A stretch of 64,000 nt of DNA from Chthoniobacterales bacterium (GTDB lineage Bacteria > Verrucomicrobiota > Verrucomicrobiia > Chthoniobacterales > JAATET01): NCBI GenBank assembly GCA_015655545.1, contig JAATET010000049.1, positions 1-64,000 on the forward strand, given 5' to 3'. The translations under genes and the position numbers were made by a program. Numbering within the stretch: position 1 is the first letter of the stretch; the number at the start of each line of letters is the position of its first letter. Below, piece after piece: positions 39,955-64,000 of this stretch. Under the pieces are notes generated by a model that was given only the letters and a program-made list of their open reading frames with translations, searched no databases and was not told the origin of the DNA.

Positions 39955-40633
39955 ATGACTGCTGCTGCGCGACCCACTCGATCGAGAAGCGGACCATCTC
40001 CTTCGAGTCGTGGAAACCGAGCTTCTCCTTGATGTGGGCACGGTGCGTCTCGATGGTCTTCACGCTGAGATGGAGCTCGTTCGCGATGTCCTGCGCGCCG
40101 AAGCCGCGGCCCATGAGATTGAGAACTTCGAGCTCGCGATCGGAAAGCTTGTCCACGGGCGAGCCAAGACCCTCGTCCATCGAGCGAATCGCTTTGAAGA
40201 CAAGGCGGTCGCTGAATTTCGGACTGAGGTAGGGCTCGCCGGAAAGCACTTTGCGGATTGCGGTAAGAATCGAATCGAGCGCCTCGGCTTTCATCACGTA
40301 GCCGAGCGCGCCGGCCCGCAGCGCCCGGAGCGCGTAGAGAGATTCGTCATGCATCGAGACGACCAGCATCGGCATTTTGGGCGACTCGGCCTTCATGGAT
40401 TTGAGCAACTCGATGCCATTCGTCCCCGGCATGGAAATGTCCACCAATGCGACGTCGGGCTTCAACCGGCGCATGGCGTCGAGCGCTGCCGGTGCGGATC
40501 CGGCCTCGCCGCAGACGTGCAGATCGGGCTCCGCATTGATCATTGCGCAGATGCCGTGCCGGAAAATCGGATGGTCGTCGATGATGAGAACCTGGTGCTT
40601 CTCCGCCGCGGTTGGCGATTCGGATTTCGACAT
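39953..40633 (-). CDS. NarL/FixJ-family response regulator
   Basis: A 226-aa regulator with a receiver domain (IIDDHPIFRHG, phosphoacceptor Asp65 in VALVDISMPGTNG, Lys in GYVMKAEA) and a C-terminal LuxR helix-turn-helix (LSDRELEVLNLMGRGFGAQD, then IANELHLSVKTIETHRAHI). It starts five bases after the end of the PAS kinase gene, so kinase and regulator form a two-component pair. In the recognition helix KTIETH is standard. The target promoters are unknown. Confidence 0.95.
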   Translation of the reverse strand: MSKSESPTAAEKHQVLIIDDHPIFRHGICAMINAEPDLHVCGEAGSAPAALDAMRRLKPDVALVDISMPGTNGIELLKSMKAESPKMPMLVVSMHDESLYALRALRAGALGYVMKAEALDSILTAIRKVLSGEPYLSPKFSDRLVFKAIRSMDEGLGSPVDKLSDRELEVLNLMGRGFGAQDIANELHLSVKTIETHRAHIKEKLGFHDSKEMVRFSIEWVAQQQS

Positions 40634-40638
40634 AAAGT

Positions 40639-42533
40639 TTAATCGTTTGGAAAGGTGCAGGTGACTGTGGTGCCGCTGCCGGTAATCGTCTCGATGGCGA
40701 GATCGCCGCGGATCGCCTGTGCCCGGTATTTCATAATTCCCACGCCCACACCAGCATCACCAGCCGCCGCGCTTCCGCCGGTGGCGGTGCTTTCGGTGCC
40801 ATTGTCGCTCACCTGGAGAATCACGTTTCCAACATCTTCCGTGAGGCGAATCAGGATCCGGGTCGCTCCGGCGTGACGAAGCGCGTTCGTGATCGCCTCA
40901 TGCGCGATGCGAAAGACGTGCAGCGCGACCTCGGTGCTCTGCACCAGCACCGGCTTCTCGCAACGCAGCTCGATGCGTGCGCCCGTGGGCGTGCGCTCGA
41001 CGAGCTCCTGGAGCGCGGACATCAAGCCGGCCGGGTCGATCTCGATGGGGTTGATGCCGCGGGCAAGATTACGGGCGTGGACCACGGAATCGTTGATCAA
41101 CCTCGCGAGGTCGCCAGCGCGCTCGGCACTGGGCGACGCGTCCCGATCGAGTTCCTTGAAAAGCGCCTGCGCACCGAACGCCGCGCCGAGCAATTGCTGG
41201 CAGAGCCCGTCATGCAGCTCCTGGCCAATACGTCGCTGCTCGCGTTCGCCGGCCTCCAGCAGCGCGCGCTCCAGAAACTTTTTTTCCGTCTCGTCGAGCA
41301 CCAGCAGCACGCGACCGGCCTCGGCGCCGGCAGGCCCGGGATAGGGGGCGCTCCAGACCGCTACGTCGAGCCGGCGGCCGTCGCCGGTCTGGAGATGCAG
41401 GTTCACATGATCGTTGCCGGGCATTTCCAAAAGCGCGTCGAGCTGGTCGGGGGAGTTCCATTTCAATGGCAGGTCGAGGAGCCGGCGGCCGACGACTTCT
41501 TCCTTGCGGAGGGCAAAAAGATGTTCGGACTCCGGATTCCAAATTTCCACGCAGCGGGCGCTGTCGAGCGCGATCACCGCGGCTGGTGACGCGTTGGTGA
41601 GAGTTTCGAAAGTTTCGCTGATCCGTCGGAGCGCGGACGTGCGATCCTGCACGCGCCGTTCGAGCTTTTCGCGTGCTTCGGCAATTTCCGCGAGCGCCTC
41701 GTGGCGCGCGGTGATGTCAATGATCACGCCCGCGGCATAGAGCGGATTCCCGGCGTCATCGCGGATGATCGACGAAGTCACGGAGACCCAGGTGACGGAG
41801 CCGTCCTTGCGAAGGTAGCGTTTTTCGATCGTGTAATGGGCGTCGCCGCGTGCGAGCGATTCCTGCCAACCGGCGGTATCGCGCTCGCGATCCTCGGGAT
41901 GAGTCAGTTGATAAGCGGAGAGTGCGGAGAGCTCCTCGCGCGAATAGCCGGTAATGTCGCAAAACATCTGGTTTACGGTCAGGAAGAGCCCGGTATTCGC
42001 ATCCGCGAGCACGTTGCCGACGCCGTTCAATTCGAAGAATGTGCGAAAATCCCGCTCGCGGGCCCGCATCTCCCGCTCCGCGATTTTCTGCCGCGTGATG
42101 TCGCAGTTGATTTCGATGATGGCGGCCAACGCACCGTTTTCCTCCCGGTAGGGAATCCACGTCGTGGAAAGGATGCGCCGGCTTCCATCGCGGTGGTGAT
42201 GCACGATCTCGCCCTCCCACCGGCCTCCGGCCCGTGCCTGGTGTTCCAATGCCGACTGCGGACCTGGCAGTTCCGTGCGCAGCGCTCGGCGCTGTTTCTG
42301 CCGAGAGCCTCGGGAGCCGACCAGCCGTAAAGCTCCTCGTCCGTCGAACTCCAGAAGGTGATCCGCCCTTCGGGATCACGGGCGATGATGTGCGCGTAAC
42401 ACAGCATCGATTCCTGCTCGCGCAATTTCTCGCGCATATCCGACGGCGTGTTGGAAAGATGCTCTTCGGGATTTAGCGTGGGAAAAATAATGTTCGCCGC
42501 AAGCTCGGGCGGTTTTGGACTGCGATCGCTCAC
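40639..42533 (-). pseudogene. PAS sensor histidine kinase (HisKA_3 type) with one frameshift
   Basis: A start at 42533 encodes the N-terminus and a first PAS domain (ARDPEGRITFWSSTDEELYG, then WSAPEALGR). Near 42300 a one-base change is needed to continue (RALRTELPGPQSALEHQARA, then GGRWEGEIVHHHRDGSRRI). Two further PAS domains follow (VNQMFCDITGYSREELSALS and NASPAAVIALDSARCVEIWN), then the HisKA_3 phosphoacceptor IGQELHDGLCQQLLG and a HATPase_c domain (AHEAITNALRHAG, VSDNGTES, VGIMKYRAQAIRG). It should phosphorylate the NarL-type regulator encoded next. If the frameshift is real, a shortened protein lacking the first PAS could still be made from an internal start near 42249. Confidence 0.85.
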
Positions 42534-57974: not shown

Positions 57975-58850
57975 TCAAATAAGGCCGTATTGAGCGGCGA
58001 TCGCGCGGAGGCCCGGAGTATTGGCCTCGGAAAGGGTGACGAGCGGCAGGCGCACTTCAGGGGTCATTTTTCCCTGCCAGGCGAGGATGGCTTTGGCGGG
58101 CACGGGATTCGACTCGACGAAGATGGCTTTGAAAAATGGATACCACTTGCGGTGCAGCTTCGCCGCACTTTCGGGCTTCCCGGCAAGCCACGCTCCGACG
58201 AGGTGAACGACTTCGCGGGGAATGATATTCGACGCCACACTGATGACTCCGACGGCTCCGGCGGAGAGAAAGGGAAGGGTGAGCGAATCGTCGCCGGAAA
58301 CGATCTCGAAACTGTCTGGCAATGCGTTGCGCAGCTGGCTCACGCGCTCGACGGTGCCGCCGGCTTCCTTGATCGAGGTGATATTCGGACAGTCCGCGGC
58401 GAGCCGCACGATGGTCGGCACGTCGATCTCGATGCCGCAACGACCGGGAATGCTGTAGAGCATGATCGGGATTTTCACCGATTCAGCGATGGCGCGGAAA
58501 TGGCGGTAGAGTCCCTCGGGCGTGGGTTTGTTGTAATAGGGAGCGACGAGCAAGGCGGCGTCGGCGCCGATTTTTTCGGCTTCGATCGTGAGTGCGATGG
58601 CCTCGGAGGTGGCGTTTGAGCCCGTGCCGGCAATGACTTTGCAGCGGCCGGCAGCGGTCTCGACGGCGGCGCGGATGACGTCGCTGTGCTCCTCGTAGGA
58701 AAGGGTGGGCGACTCGCCGGTCGTGCCGACGGGAATGATGCCGGAGATGCCTTCGGCGATCTGGAATTCGATCAGCGAACGGAAGGCCTCCACGTCGAAT
58801 TTATCGTCGCGAAACGGGGTGACGAGGGCGGTGTGGGCTCCTTCAAACAT
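57975..58850 (-). CDS. dapA: 4-hydroxy-tetrahydrodipicolinate synthase
   Basis: A 291-aa class I aldolase, pyruvate plus aspartate semialdehyde to HTPA. The Schiff-base Lys161 is in NITSIKEAGG, Tyr132 in MLYSIPGRCG and the GTTGE element in GTTGESPTLSYEE. APYYNKPTPEGLYRHFRAIA and the C-terminal PVPAKAILAWQGK fit. It starts MFEGAHTALVTPFRDDKFDV and begins 16 nt after dapF. Confidence 0.97.
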   Translation of the reverse strand: MFEGAHTALVTPFRDDKFDVEAFRSLIEFQIAEGISGIIPVGTTGESPTLSYEEHSDVIRAAVETAAGRCKVIAGTGSNATSEAIALTIEAEKIGADAALLVAPYYNKPTPEGLYRHFRAIAESVKIPIMLYSIPGRCGIEIDVPTIVRLAADCPNITSIKEAGGTVERVSQLRNALPDSFEIVSGDDSLTLPFLSAGAVGVISVASNIIPREVVHLVGAWLAGKPESAAKLHRKWYPFFKAIFVESNPVPAKAILAWQGKMTPEVRLPLVTLSEANTPGLRAIAAQYGLI

Positions 58851-58865
58851 GAGTCGGAAAGTGAA

Positions 58866-59681
58866 TCAGAGCGTGACGTCGCCGTCGAAGACGAAATCGG
58901 CCGGCCCGCTGAGCGTGACATTCGTAAAGTCGCCGGCCGTCGCGCCGGTTTCGAAGCCGACCAGCAGCGTTTCTCCGCCGCGGACCTGAATGCGAATCGG
59001 AGCGCTCGCGCCGGTTTCGAGATGATGAATGAGCGCGCAGGCCACGACGCCGGTGCCGCAGGCCAGAGTCTCGCCCTCGACGCCGCGCTCGTAGGTGCGA
59101 ATCGCGATCTCTCCCGGCGCGCGGACGTTGACGAAATTCACATTCGTGCCTTTCGGCGAGAAGTGCGGGTGGTAACGAATCGCCGCACCTAGACGTGAGA
59201 CCTCCACGCTTTCCAAGTCGTCCACGAAAATGACCGCGTGAGGCACGCCGGTATTCACGGAATGGACGGTGAGTTCCTCGCCGCCGGCATCGAGCGTGGT
59301 CGCCACGGCGTAGGAATGCGGCGCGCTCATCTCGATCTGCACTCCGTCGCCGAGGCAGCGCGCGCCGATCACTCCGGCCAGGGTTTCAAAGGCGATCGTT
59401 TCTCCGGTGTGGCCGGAAACTTTCCGCGCAAAGCGGGCGAAGCAGCGGGCGCCGTTGCCGCACATTTCGGCTTCGCCTCCGTCGGCATTATAATAACGCA
59501 TGCGAAAATCCGCGCCACTCTGCGGGGACTCGACCAAGAGCAGGCCGTCCGCGCCGATGCCGCGATGACGGTCGCACAGCCGCGCGATTTGCGCGTGAGT
59601 GAGCGCGAGGGAGGCGTCGCGATTGTCGAGCATCACGAAGTCGTTGCCCGCGCCGTTCATCTTGGTGAAGGAAAGTGTCAT
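58866..59681 (-). CDS. dapF: diaminopimelate epimerase
   Basis: A 271-aa epimerase that interconverts LL- and meso-diaminopimelate. Its two catalytic cysteines are seen: Cys74 in EAEMCGNGARCFARF and the second in GETLACGTGVVACAL. It opens with SFTKMNGAGNDFVMLDN, the family hallmark. It starts the three-gene dap order F-A-B, with trpA 98 nt upstream on the same strand. Confidence 0.96.
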   Translation of the reverse strand: MTLSFTKMNGAGNDFVMLDNRDASLALTHAQIARLCDRHRGIGADGLLLVESPQSGADFRMRYYNADGGEAEMCGNGARCFARFARKVSGHTGETIAFETLAGVIGARCLGDGVQIEMSAPHSYAVATTLDAGGEELTVHSVNTGVPHAVIFVDDLESVEVSRLGAAIRYHPHFSPKGTNVNFVNVRAPGEIAIRTYERGVEGETLACGTGVVACALIHHLETGASAPIRIQVRGGETLLVGFETGATAGDFTNVTLSGPADFVFDGDVTL

Positions 59682-59778
59682 TGGTCGGAAACGCTCAAAT
59701 TATCGCCGCAGTGTGGCGATGCGCAAGTCGCTCCTCCGGAGAGCGGCGCCCGACCGACCGCCGTGCTTGGGGAATTTC

Positions 59779-60585
59779 CTACGCCGAATGCGTCGCTTCG
59801 GCCAGCGGACGGACGAATGCCTCGATCCGTTCCACGAGATCGGCCGCGGCACCGTGCTCCCCGATGCGTCGCACGATCGCACTGCCGACGACGACGGCAT
59901 CGGATTGCGCCGCGACCTGCGCCGCCTGCTCCGGCGTGGAAATTCCGAAACCTACCGCGATCGGAAGCGCGCTATGTTTGCGGATCTCCGCGACCTGCGC
60001 CGCGATGGAGTCCGAGACGGAAGTTTGCTCGCCGGTAACGCCCTCGCGAGAGACGTAGTAGATGAAACCCTCCGCTGTCCGTGCGAGCAATCCGGCCCGC
60101 TCCGCCGGCGTGGTCGGCGCGATCAGACGAATCGAGCGCAAGCCCGGCGCGGCCTTGAACTCGCCATTCGTCCCGACCTCGTCCGGCGGTAAATCGAGAA
60201 ACAGGACGCCGTCCGCCCCCGCGGCAGCGGCATCCGCCTGAAATCGCTCGAAGCCGTAGGTATAGACAGGATTCAGGTAGGTGAAGAGGACGAGCGGCAC
60301 TTGCGAGCGTTCACGGACTTTGCGCACGCATTCGAGCACGCCGCGCACCGAGGCGCCGGCGTCCAGAGCGCGTCCCGCAGCCGCTTGGATCGTCGGCCCG
60401 TCGGCCAGGGGATCGGAAAACGGAACGCCGACTTCGATCACATCCGAACCGGCACGTTCGAGAGCCAGAATCAGCTCCACCGTCGCATCGAGGCTCGGAT
60501 CGCCGGCGGTGAGATAAGCGACGAAGCCCGCGCGGCCTTCAGTCTTCAAACGCGCGAAACAAGCGTCGATGCGGTTGGTGGTCAT
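59779..60585 (-). CDS. trpA: tryptophan synthase alpha chain
   Basis: A 268-aa TrpA that splits indoleglycerol phosphate to indole. Catalytic Glu51 and Asp62 are in VIEVGVPFSDPLADGPTIQ; also seen are PLVLFTYLNPVYTYGFERF, GVLFLDLPPDEVGTN, YYVSREGVTGEQTS and the GFGISTPEQAAQVAAQSDAV phosphate site. trpB is not in the window. The gene starts the minus-strand run towards the dap genes but the 98-nt gap could carry a promoter. Confidence 0.95.
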   Translation of the reverse strand: MTTNRIDACFARLKTEGRAGFVAYLTAGDPSLDATVELILALERAGSDVIEVGVPFSDPLADGPTIQAAAGRALDAGASVRGVLECVRKVRERSQVPLVLFTYLNPVYTYGFERFQADAAAAGADGVLFLDLPPDEVGTNGEFKAAPGLRSIRLIAPTTPAERAGLLARTAEGFIYYVSREGVTGEQTSVSDSIAAQVAEIRKHSALPIAVGFGISTPEQAAQVAAQSDAVVVGSAIVRRIGEHGAAADLVERIEAFVRPLAEATHSA

Positions 60586-60780
60586 GCGCGATTATAATGC
60601 AAACGCATCGACGCGGGCCAGTGTTTGATGAGCGTTTGACGCTCGAGCGAAGCCGGGGGCGAAGAGCGGCGCCGCGAGCCGGATGCTCGCCAATGTTCGG
60701 AGATTCATCGTCGGGACGATGGCACGAGGACGGCGCGAATTCTGTGTTTGTTTCGAGATCCCTCGCCTAAAATCCCCGCC

Positions 60781-61026
60781 ATGGGCGAATTGGACACCTC
60801 TGCTCTCCGCAAATGTCTGCATGACGGATTGTGCCAGCAGCTCACCGGCGCATTGATGTTCGCGAGGGTGCTCGCGGATACATTGGAAAAACGGGGTGAC
60901 GCGCTGTCCGCGGATGGCGAGGCGCTTTTTCGGATGATCGATGCCGCCGCGAATGAAGTGCACACGCTTATGGACGCGATCGGAGCCGCCGCCGCGCCCG
61001 CCCAAAAAAACTCAGACGCGAAATAG
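60781..61026 (+). CDS. orphan HisKA_3-like mini-protein (81 aa)
   Basis: ATG at 60781 gives 81 aa made almost entirely of a two-helix DHp-type segment. LRKCLHDGLCQQLTGALMFA (His14 is the likely phosphoacceptor) resembles the H-box of the PAS kinase at 40639-42533 (QELHDGLCQQLLGAAFG). The second helix reads SADGEALFRMIDAAANEVHT, then LMDAI. There is no HATPase_c domain after it and no kinase frame upstream, so this is not simply a truncated reading. It might act as a phosphotransfer or dimerisation decoy protein. An in-frame earlier ATG exists at 60748. It could also be a remnant of a lost kinase gene. Confidence 0.6.
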   Translation: MGELDTSALRKCLHDGLCQQLTGALMFARVLADTLEKRGDALSADGEALFRMIDAAANEVHTLMDAIGAAAAPAQKNSDAK

Positions 61027-61032
61027 CGAAAG

Positions 61033-61542
61033 CTATTGTCCGCTGGCGCCGGATGTGCCGCTCGAGCTGCCTCCGGTGGAAGAACCGCTCGTCGTGGACG
61101 ACCCGCCGGAATTGTCCGTCGTGCTTGCCGGATTACCATTTGAGGAGGGTGCGCCGCTGTTCGTGCCGTCGGCCGGTCTTCCGCTCATCGAGGGAGTCCC
61201 GGTGTTTTGGGACGTGTTTGCCGCGCCATTCGTATTCATCGGGCTAGGGCTGGAGACCGGCGTGCCGCTGGGATTCGTGGTTGAGCTGCCTGCCGTGGCA
61301 CCTGTGACGACTGTATTTCCACCCGTGGCGGCAGCAGTGGTCGTGTCGGTTGCGGTCGTGGCGTTTGGCGTCACCCGCGGTCCCGGCACCCGTGTGCCAT
61401 CCATGTTCACGGTAGTTGATGTGCCTCCGGATGCCGCCGACGGACCGGCACCGGTGGTTGTTTCGCCGCTGGATTGCGCCCATGCCGCGCAGGACAAGAT
61501 GGGAACGACGGTAATCGCGAGAAGCTTTCGAGTCATTTTCAT
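61033..61542 (-). CDS. low-complexity Ser/Thr/Gly-rich secreted protein
   Basis: A 169-aa protein with a signal peptide (LLAITVVPILSCAAWAQ); the mature chain is nearly all Ser, Thr, Gly, Asn, Pro and Ala (SPSPMNTNGAANTSQNTGTP, ending SSSGTSGASGQ). No fold or family can be recognised. Such chains form linkers or extracellular matrix-like polymers, or are disordered. It converges with the DHp mini-protein, with 6 nt between stops. Confidence 0.6.
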   Translation of the reverse strand: MKMTRKLLAITVVPILSCAAWAQSSGETTTGAGPSAASGGTSTTVNMDGTRVPGPRVTPNATTATDTTTAAATGGNTVVTGATAGSSTTNPSGTPVSSPSPMNTNGAANTSQNTGTPSMSGRPADGTNSGAPSSNGNPASTTDNSGGSSTTSGSSTGGSSSGTSGASGQ

Positions 61543-61676
61543 ATACCGGGAAATCGTGGCTGACCGCGTGCGGAAACTTCAGGGATACCCCTGTTCAATC
61601 ACTCGGGGGACGGGGGTCAAAATCTCTCAGGGTCGTGTGAAGGTGAATAAAGCGCGATGCCGGTCGTTCAAGAATC

Positions 61677-61979
61677 ATGGACGCACAACCGACTCGAAGT
61701 TTCACCGTGCTCCTTTATGCGGCGATCGCATTTTTTACAGTCGGTTGTGCGGTCTATCCGGATGGAACTGCGGTCTTATTGCCACCGCCCCCGCTCGTCG
61801 TTGCAGCTCCGGTTTACAGTTACGGCGGATACCGGGGCTGCTATCGGCCTTATTACGGCTATCGCCCCTATGGTTTCCGGCCCTACTGGGGTGGCTATCG
61901 CGGCGGCTACGGCTCCTATAACCGTGGCGGCTATTATCGCGGCGGCGGTTACTACCGTGGCGGTGGATATTGGCGGTAG
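61677..61979 (+). CDS. Tyr/Gly-rich lipoprotein
   Basis: A 100-aa lipoprotein precursor with lipobox FTVGC (Cys24). The mature chain has a short Pro/Val stretch (LLPPPPLVVAAPVYSYGGY) followed by repeats rich in Tyr, Gly and Arg (YRPYYGYRPYGFRPYWGGYR, ending YYRGGGYWR). Related low-complexity lipoproteins occur in many bacteria, with unknown role; they may be surface or adhesive. It is transcribed away from the Ser/Thr-rich gene with 134 nt between. Confidence 0.65.
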   Translation: MDAQPTRSFTVLLYAAIAFFTVGCAVYPDGTAVLLPPPPLVVAAPVYSYGGYRGCYRPYYGYRPYGFRPYWGGYRGGYGSYNRGGYYRGGGYYRGGGYWR

Positions 61980-62069
61980 AAAGCGTTGAGATTGCTCTCG
62001 ATTTTGTCCGGAGAACGAATCACCGCAGAAAGCATTTGGCACCACTCGGATGGCGCGTAGGCTGGATGC

Positions 62070-62828
62070 ATGCTCCGCCTCTTGATCGTCGCGTTTTTCC
62101 TCTCCGCCAGCGCGGTCGCGCAAACCGTGACTCTCTCCGACGCGCAAGCCATGGCGATCGGCAAACGCATCTGGCAAAATGAATGCGCCGGCACTGCGAG
62201 CGGCCTCACTTCGTGGAACCGGGGCGAAGCTTTCGCGTCGCTCGGCATCGGACATTTCATCTGGTATCCGGCGGGCGCACCGGGCCCGTTCGAGGAAAGT
62301 TTTCCGAAGTTGATCGGCTATTTCGCATCACACGGAATCAGGACGCCCGATTGGCTTGGCGGCCATTGCCCCTGGAAGACACGGGCGGCCTTCATGGCCG
62401 ACATCGGCGGCGAGCGCATGAAACAGCTGCGCGCCCTGCTCGTCGATACCGTGGCCGTGCAGGCGCGATTCTGCGCGCAGCGTCTCGAGCAGGCATTGCC
62501 CAAAATGCTCGCCGCCGCACCCAGGAACGAGCGTGAGCGCATCCGCGTGAATTTCTACCGCGTCGCCGGGCAGCATCTCGGCATGTATGCGCTCATCGAT
62601 TACGTGAACTTCAAGGGCGAGGGCGTCAGCCCCGCCGAACGCTACGATGGCCACGGATGGGGCTTGCTCCAGGTGCTTGAAACGATGGGCGATGGTCCGG
62701 CGCTGCCCGCATTTTCAAAGGCCGCGGCCCATGTGCTCGCACAACGCGTGGCGAATGCCCCCAAAGCCCGCCACGAGGCGCAGTGGCTGCCCGGCTGGCG
62801 CAACCGCGTCGCGAGTTACGCGGACTAG
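62070..62828 (+). CDS. secreted conserved protein, possibly lysozyme-like
   Basis: A 252-aa exported protein (signal about 1-17). The start of the mature chain has WQNECAGTASGLTSWNRGEA followed by FASLGIGHFIWYP, which recalls the E-x(n)-GLT-GxGH type of lysozyme active-site region, and ERIRVNFYRVAGQHLGMYAL, then IDYVNFKGEGVSPAERY. Similar secreted proteins occur in other Gram-negative bacteria but their role is not known; a muramidase fold is only my inference. Its stop overlaps the stop of the gene on the other strand. Confidence 0.6.
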   Translation: MLRLLIVAFFLSASAVAQTVTLSDAQAMAIGKRIWQNECAGTASGLTSWNRGEAFASLGIGHFIWYPAGAPGPFEESFPKLIGYFASHGIRTPDWLGGHCPWKTRAAFMADIGGERMKQLRALLVDTVAVQARFCAQRLEQALPKMLAAAPRNERERIRVNFYRVAGQHLGMYALIDYVNFKGEGVSPAERYDGHGWGLLQVLETMGDGPALPAFSKAAAHVLAQRVANAPKARHEAQWLPGWRNRVASYAD

Positions 62829-63337
62829 CGTTTACCCGTCACCAGCAACGAGCCGTTGTAGCCCGGGTCCGGGGAAGTCACCGTGCCGGTCCACGTCGCG
62901 CGTTTGCCTTTGAAGACGATCGTCCCGACAATCGCGATGGTCGTCGAGGGGGCCGGTCCCACCGCATACGTCACGGAAACCGCCAATTTCCTGCCGCGCA
63001 TGCGCGCTTGGCCGGAGCCCGCGCCCTCGAGTCCATCGACCGTCACCCGCCCATTCAGCAAGCCCGTCTTCGAAATATTGAACGTCTGCGTGGTATTCCT
63101 CATCACGTTTCCGGAGTTCAATATTCCGTTGTAGAGAAATGTGCCGCGCAGGCTGGTTTTGCGACCGGTAAAAGTAAGCGTCGAGCTGCCGGAAAGCGCT
63201 CCGTCGGCCGTCGTCGAAAGCGCCGTTCCCGTGTAGGAACCCGCATAAGGCAGCAGGGTCGGCTTCGCGTGCGCCGCCGCCGCGCCGGCGAGCAAAATAA
63301 TCGACCCCAGGGCAACGGCGAAACGCGGCAGTTCCAT
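62825..63337 (-). CDS. small secreted beta-rich protein
   Basis: The start at 63337 gives 170 aa with a signal peptide (RFAVALGSIILLAGAAAAHA). The mature chain (LLPYAGSYTGTALSTTADGA and following) is Gly/Thr/Ser-rich beta-type sequence ending GSLLVTGKR, with no cysteines. It resembles the A7-split secreted protein at 1848-2392: both have an [YF]-x-GS[YF]TG opening, a central SKT, and an LLVTGK-type ending. A family role is unknown. An in-frame start 24 codons upstream would lack the signal peptide. Confidence 0.6.
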   Translation of the reverse strand: MELPRFAVALGSIILLAGAAAAHAKPTLLPYAGSYTGTALSTTADGALSGSSTLTFTGRKTSLRGTFLYNGILNSGNVMRNTTQTFNISKTGLLNGRVTVDGLEGAGSGQARMRGRKLAVSVTYAVGPAPSTTIAIVGTIVFKGKRATWTGTVTSPDPGYNGSLLVTGKR

Positions 63338-63430
63338 CGCCGCACCATAGGTCCGGCTCTGCGGTCTGTCAAAACGTCGCAGGATGCAGCTTGTCAGCCG
63401 CGTTCTCACACGTGAAAACGGGCTGACTCA

Positions 63431-64000
63431 ATGATGACCAAGGAGCAAATTGCCGAGGTGTTGGAGAATTTCGGGCGCCTGCTCGAGCTCAAAGGCGAGA
63501 ATCCTTTCAAGATCCGCGCCTATTCGAACGCCGTCCGCGCACTGGAAACACTCGCCGAACCGCTCGAAAAACTCGTCGCCGAAGCACGCCTCGACGAAAT
63601 CGACGGCATTGGAAAAGCGATCGCGGAAAAAATCACCACGCTCGTGCAGACCGGCGCGCTGCCGCAATACGACGAGCTCCGCGAGTCCTTCCCCGCCGAT
63701 ATTCTCACGCTTTTCGAGCTGCAGGGGCTCGGCGCCAAAAAAATCAAACTCATCCACGACACGCTGCGGATTTCCTCGATCAGTTCGCTACGGCGGGCTT
63801 GCAAGGATGGCCGCATCGCGGCGATGCCCGGCTTCGGCGAAAAGACCGCCGCGAACATCCTCGCCGCCATCGAGCACCGCAAAAAAAACGCGGGCGCCTT
63901 CCTGCTCGGCGATGTCGCCACCATCGCGCAACGCCTGCTCGACGATCTGCGTTCGCATCCCGAGATCCTGCACGCCGAGATCGCGGGCAGTTTCCGGCGC
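63431..64000 (+). CDS. polX: DNA polymerase X family protein, 5' part
   Basis: The window ends inside this gene, so only 190 codons are seen. ATG at 63431 starts MMTKEQIAEVLENFGRLLEL. The beginning shows the helix-hairpin-helix 8-kDa-like region (LKGENPFKIRAYSNAVRALE, DGIGKAIAEKITTLVQTGAL, LQGLGAKKIKLIHDTLRISS) and the start of the palm (ILHAEIAGSFRR, the GS motif). In bacteria such proteins usually continue with a PHP domain and take part in gap-filling repair. The rest should lie to the right. Confidence 0.9.
   Translation, partial: MMTKEQIAEVLENFGRLLELKGENPFKIRAYSNAVRALETLAEPLEKLVAEARLDEIDGIGKAIAEKITTLVQTGALPQYDELRESFPADILTLFELQGLGAKKIKLIHDTLRISSISSLRRACKDGRIAAMPGFGEKTAANILAAIEHRKKNAGAFLLGDVATIAQRLLDDLRSHPEILHAEIAGSFRR

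Follow-up and report, generated by a model that had tools for sequence, protein, structure and literature searches.

Locus and predicted hairpin

The window (the whole stretch of DNA analysed here, 64,000 nucleotides from a Chthoniobacterales genome) carries, divergent from trpA, a short gene for an 81-aa protein, here termed the mini-protein (Table 1). Pfam finds a single match in it, to HisKA_3 (PF07730), the dimerisation and histidine-phosphotransfer (DHp) domain of NarX-type kinases. His14 sits in CLHDGLCQQLTG, where the H-box reads LHDGLCQQL; when HDGLCQQL is written as a degenerate DNA pattern, the window contains it a single time and none of 100 shuffles of the window contains it. The initial annotation had described a DHp-only gene of this length with His14 and a clean stop, and the translation and the profile match agree with it. 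The assignment to HisKA_3 stands with a qualification: residues 13-66 align with profile positions 9-62 of 68 at E 2.9e-4, and the score of 21.7 bits is 2.3 bits under the curated cut-off of 24 bits. All six members of the family alignment match HisKA_3, with a best E of 3.9e-6. The HPt profile did not match the mini-protein in the Pfam scan, an NCBIfam scan gave no match over any cut-off, and a sequence search of the PDB with the family profile gave no significant match.

Given the family alignment, AlphaFold2 models the protein as a hairpin of two helices (mean pLDDT 78.6, pTM 0.51). The top PDB match of the predicted hairpin in Foldseek is 6lgq_C, from a histidine kinase - response regulator complex (probability 0.98, TM 0.63, E 0.41, the E value alone not being significant); the match agrees with a DHp hairpin and is no proof of one. 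Only 67 residues follow His14 and predicted helix 2 reaches residue 79 of 81, leaving no ATPase-like fold after the hairpin. By sequence the mini-protein is a HisKA_3 protein and, lacking HATPase, not a histidine kinase.

Table 1. Coordinates of the mini-protein gene, its predicted parts and other features of the window discussed in the text.
Feature	Position	Strand	Evidence
Stand-alone HisKA_3-type DHp protein, 81 aa + TAG stop	60781..61026	+	Translation, Pfam, same-size homologues, selection test
H-box HDGLCQ: His14 (60820-60822), Asp15 (+1), Gln19 (+5) = DxxxQ motif	60820..60837	+	
Predicted helix 1, residues 6-38	60796..60894	+	AlphaFold2
Predicted helix 2, residues 43-79	60907..61017	+	AlphaFold2
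Intergenic region between divergent trpA and mini-protein gene, 195 bases	60586..60780	.	ORF table
trpA, divergent from mini-protein gene	59779-60585	-	Pfam PF00290, E 5e-88
Full HisKA_3 PAS kinase, candidate partner, non-adjacent	40645..41241	-	HisKA_3 41.1 bits, HATPase_c 45.2 bits
PAS kinase DHp	41047-41241 (41077-41250 in the comparison with the mini-protein)	-	HisKA_3 41.1 bits
PAS kinase HATPase_c	40645-40926	-	45.2 bits
GerE (NarL-type) DNA-binding domain of response regulator beside PAS kinase, candidate target	39986..40150	-	PF00196 58.1 bits

On its other flank the mini-protein gene faces short ORFs, two of which were tested and have no Pfam match. The proteins encoded there include one of 169 aa (61033-61542, - strand) with a signal-peptide-like start, a body rich in Ser, Thr, Gly and Asn, and no Pfam match; a lipoprotein-like protein of 100 aa (61677-61979, + strand) rich in Gly, Tyr and Arg; and one of 252 aa (62070-62828, + strand) that also begins like a signal peptide and matches nothing in Pfam at E 0.001.

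That no HATPase_c follows the hairpin, as first annotated, was confirmed: the only HATPase_c match in the contig lies inside the PAS kinase, 20 kb from the mini-protein gene, and a search of every frame of 58000-64000 gave no HATPase N-box motif. Since both searches came back empty near the gene, a broken kinase with its HATPase in another frame nearby, which the initial annotation had considered, is excluded at this sensitivity. The likeness to the window's PAS kinase that had been pointed out holds for the H-box, to which it is confined, and does not extend to the protein overall, where identity is 33%. At so low an identity a recent truncated copy of that kinase was rejected. A phage or plasmid origin was also rejected, there being no phage match and only weak plasmid matches (E 0.6), to an annotated 7TM signalling protein; one short match to a viral contig turned up in the same comparison.

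Stand-alone relatives

Stand-alone relatives of the mini-protein occur in its genus, in two other families and in its own genome. Of the three further genomes in the genus, G001 and G002 encode proteins of 72-78 aa with the His at residue 14, 41-46% identical to the mini-protein over the aligned part and 73% identical to each other; the gene is absent from the third, G003. Both copies adjoin LolA-like and PAP2 genes, and in G001 a sugar transferase gene also lies upstream. The window's own genome has one more stand-alone DHp gene (G000:C114:36421-36666), whose 82-aa product carries the H-box LHDELGQHL and, at 29 bits to HisKA_3, is over the cut-off. We noted cupin-like and AraC-like genes, named by eye, near this copy.

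Three further copies come from two other families of Chthoniobacterales (Verrucomicrobiota). One, in a lichen MAG (G022), has a longer N-terminus. The other two, in G041 and G047 of a third family, are 96-103 aa long and have a neighbourhood common to both, which in G041 includes DUF2383, DUF892 and HAD genes; the gene is absent from G105, of the same genus as G041. The stand-alone gene clusters with DUF892, DUF2383 and HAD genes in G041 and G047 alike. Genes of these kinds often have to do with stress; that the mini-protein's relatives take part in stress signalling is no more than a lead.

Among the matches listed, there are at least seven stand-alone copies in at least 6 of the 213 genomes of the order. 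Across the 384 genomes of the class, all listed matches other than these seven belong to frames of 341 aa or more. Divergent stand-alone copies that score below the listed matches may exist. The stand-alone family is thus rare and patchy in the order. No conserved gene neighbourhood was found for the window copy, and no kinase, regulator or ATPase gene was recognised beside the stand-alone copies inspected.

Selection, residue signature and descent

Are these genes maintained, or are they debris? Synonymous and nonsynonymous differences per site were compared in three pairs by Nei-Gojobori counts and Fisher tests. Synonymous differences are in excess in G001/G002 (38/52 versus 36/164 nonsynonymous, p = 4e-11), in G041/G047 (31/68 versus 44/220, p = 4.6e-5) and between the window copy and G001 (39/56 versus 75/178, p = 2.6e-4). 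Synonymous sites are near saturation except in G041/G047, which makes the ratios approximate, yet all three pairs clearly point the same way: the stand-alone DHp genes compared, the window copy included, are under purifying selection. The start point is common to the window, G001 and G002 proteins, all of which place the His at residue 14.

The seven stand-alone proteins combine a conserved core with a departure from kinases just upstream of it. All seven keep the His, Asp at +1, Leu at +3 and Gln at +5. As a kinase reference we used 116 DHp domains from the fetched loci, each followed by a HATPase N-box. In these, position -9 is Glu in 113 and position -6 is Arg in 102, whereas none of the seven stand-alone proteins has either residue at its position (Fisher p 1.7e-9 and 1.6e-6, respectively); at position -4, 114 of the 116 kinases but one of the seven have Gly, Ser or Ala (p 4.5e-8). 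Because the sequences share ancestry and are not independent, these p-values are optimistic. A kinase that has been truncated should at first retain the upstream helix-1 residues, and sensor-bearing, ATPase-less proteins in G031 and G015 retain some of the kinase-typical ones. The residues lost at -9, -6 and -4 may serve coupling to a sensor or ATPase domain, and those kept may serve the regulator.

A maximum-likelihood analysis of 63 columns (residues -5 to +57) in 81 DHp segments groups the seven stand-alone proteins together with support of 90/86; when the columns are restricted to the His onward, they split into two groups in the best tree. Common descent of the seven appears likely from these alignments, 63 columns being no proof of a single origin.

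These results bear on whether the mini-protein lacks a function, being either a chance ORF or what is left of a lost kinase. The rare and patchy distribution, the Pfam score just below the curated cut-off and the lack of a conserved neighbourhood for the window copy would each fit such an origin. They are set against same-size homologues in two relatives, in which the His lies equally far from the start, against purifying selection that is significant for the window copy too, and against the common departure from kinases at -9, -6 and -4 in a clade supported at 90/86. A chance ORF was rejected on the homologues and the selection, and we consider a functionless origin of either kind very improbable. 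A genuine DHp-only protein, as opposed to a random or decaying ORF, had been proposed in the initial annotation and is borne out by this evidence, while the lost-kinase remnant that it offered as an alternative is disfavoured by the same homologues and selection.

Possible functions

So, what might a DHp hairpin do without a kinase? Related soil bacteria maintain free-standing copies under selection, and the mini-protein is therefore probably not kinase debris but a genuine accessory that puts phosphate on gene-regulator proteins, takes it off or transfers it. We give slightly less than an even chance to an orphan DHp dimer that acts on NarL-type regulators as a phosphatase or as a phosphate relay or sink. 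We hold a little more tentatively that the stand-alone proteins form a distinct DHp-only family with no trace of an ATPase, acting in trans on NarL-type regulators as a free phosphatase or relay uncoupled from kinases.

As expected for the HisKA_3 family, the hairpin would dimerise into a four-helix bundle (the predicted model is of the hairpin alone). It has no ATP binding and so would not phosphorylate itself. The dimer would dock NarL-type response regulators and could take phosphate off them by DxxxQ phosphatase chemistry; alternatively, the phosphoryl group would be moved onto His14 and then released or passed on. The mini-protein would in this way be a kinase-independent damping, sink or relay element. 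NarX-type kinases dephosphorylate their regulators through the DxxxQ motif next to the His, which NarX requires as a phosphatase and which HisKA_3 proteins conserve (PMC3510030); EnvZ is described as retaining phosphatase activity when its kinase catalytic domain is missing (Zhu et al. 2000, as cited in PMC3510030).

With no adjacent regulator gene, no target is indicated, and the NarL regulator beside the window's PAS kinase is one possibility only as a partner. Set against three full HisKA_3 kinases, the genome's GerE-type matches that pass the cut-off number 13, which may leave some NarL-type regulators without a dedicated HisKA_3 kinase (13 being a count of GerE matches, and not all GerE proteins carrying receivers).

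The invariant His is not obviously needed by a pure phosphatase, and phosphotransfer or a mixed dimer with a kinase therefore fits it equally well. The mixed dimer is the main rival to an orphan phosphatase or relay: the hairpin would form a dimer with a full HisKA_3 kinase through the DHp of each, and would either be phosphorylated in trans by the kinase's ATPase domain or block it, so that the kinase is tuned or inhibited. Retention of the His in all seven stand-alone proteins is consistent with this, and there is a precedent in FasBC, where FasC still works without its HATPase domain and the model is one of DHp-mediated FasB-FasC mixed dimers (PMC12675982). Other HATPase-less DHp proteins also speak for it. 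One in the window's own genome, with a sensor and a DHp in which the His is replaced by Gln, lies upstream of a full-length paralogue and a NarL regulator, and PAS-like+DHp proteins without HATPase are conserved in G007 and G031 with a pN/pS of 0.27. However, the seven small proteins lack the kinase-typical helix-1 residues at -9, -6 and -4, the inspected copies have no recognisable kinase gene next to them, and the window's full kinase is only 33% identical to the mini-protein. We regard a mixed dimer as unlikely overall, if still a serious contender.

The HATPase-less sensor+DHp protein of the window's genome (G000:C73:5837-6556) ends just after the DHp, has the H-box LQDEIAQTL and lies directly upstream of its paralogue, to which it is 47% identical, and of the NarL-type regulator; among 53 related genomes no close copy was found except for a 41% partial match in G005. 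The proteins of G031 and G007 are ~204 aa long and 77% identical to each other, with an N-terminus that is PAS-like by eye and a C-terminal DHp (LHQGVSQ and LHHGISQ). In G015, a frame with a HisKA_3 DHp (LHDTVSQ) ends 71 residues after the His, again without HATPase.

The mini-protein might instead be the phosphoacceptor half of a split histidine kinase, phosphorylated by an ATPase-only protein encoded elsewhere. Rv0600c/Rv0601c of Mycobacterium tuberculosis is a split histidine kinase. Split kinases are also known from CheA3/CheA4 (PMC3591291), and the invariant His of the stand-alone proteins would suit such a role. Against this, no HATPase domain lies beside the window gene and no ATPase gene was recognised beside the relatives inspected, and of the short HATPase frames in the genus several align with profile positions 8-93, as anti-sigma kinases do. 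Short HATPase frames are present elsewhere in the window's genome, with no link to the mini-protein gene recognised. We judge a split kinase improbable.

Comparison with known systems

In most accounts of two-component signalling the phosphoacceptor helices come attached to an ATPase, or at least to what is left of a degenerate one. A DHp-only protein that occurs naturally and is under selection would mean that cells can put the bare hairpin to use, and it would offer a very small natural module for sorting the DHp residues that serve the kinase reaction from those that serve the regulator. The loss of -9, -6 and -4 together with the retention of His, Asp and Gln makes direct predictions on residue roles. 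With the phrases used, a text search of the literature turned up no protein described as DHp-only or HisKA_3-only; this is weak evidence of novelty because annotated HisKA_3-only proteins may sit unremarked in databases.

Several known systems share part of this architecture. Like HPt proteins, the mini-protein is a small helical His-carrying protein without an ATPase, but its sequence is HisKA_3 with no Pfam HPt match, and dimeric function is expected of it. As in the split kinases CheA3/CheA4 (PMC3591291), the phosphoacceptor is on an ATPase-less protein, although no ATPase-only partner gene was recognised adjoining the mini-protein gene. FasC, a pseudokinase partner (PMC12675982), is likewise a DHp-bearing protein that works without its HATPase domain; it is, however, a membrane protein encoded with its partner FasB, whereas the mini-protein is an orphan without a transmembrane part.

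ChpT, Spo0B and PhyT are His phosphotransferases derived from kinases (PMC3433190, PMC5898713). The mini-protein resembles them in having a DHp-type phosphoacceptor without kinase activity of its own, and by analogy it would move phosphate between regulators; they keep a degenerate ATPase-like domain, whereas the mini-protein is the hairpin only. Compared with NarX-type kinases, it lacks the sensor, the HATPase_c and the linker and has lost Glu at -9, Arg at -6 and Gly or Ser at -4, but 54 of the 68 profile positions align, and it has in common with their HisKA_3 DHp the H-box His, Asp at +1 and Gln at +5, in a predicted two-helix hairpin.
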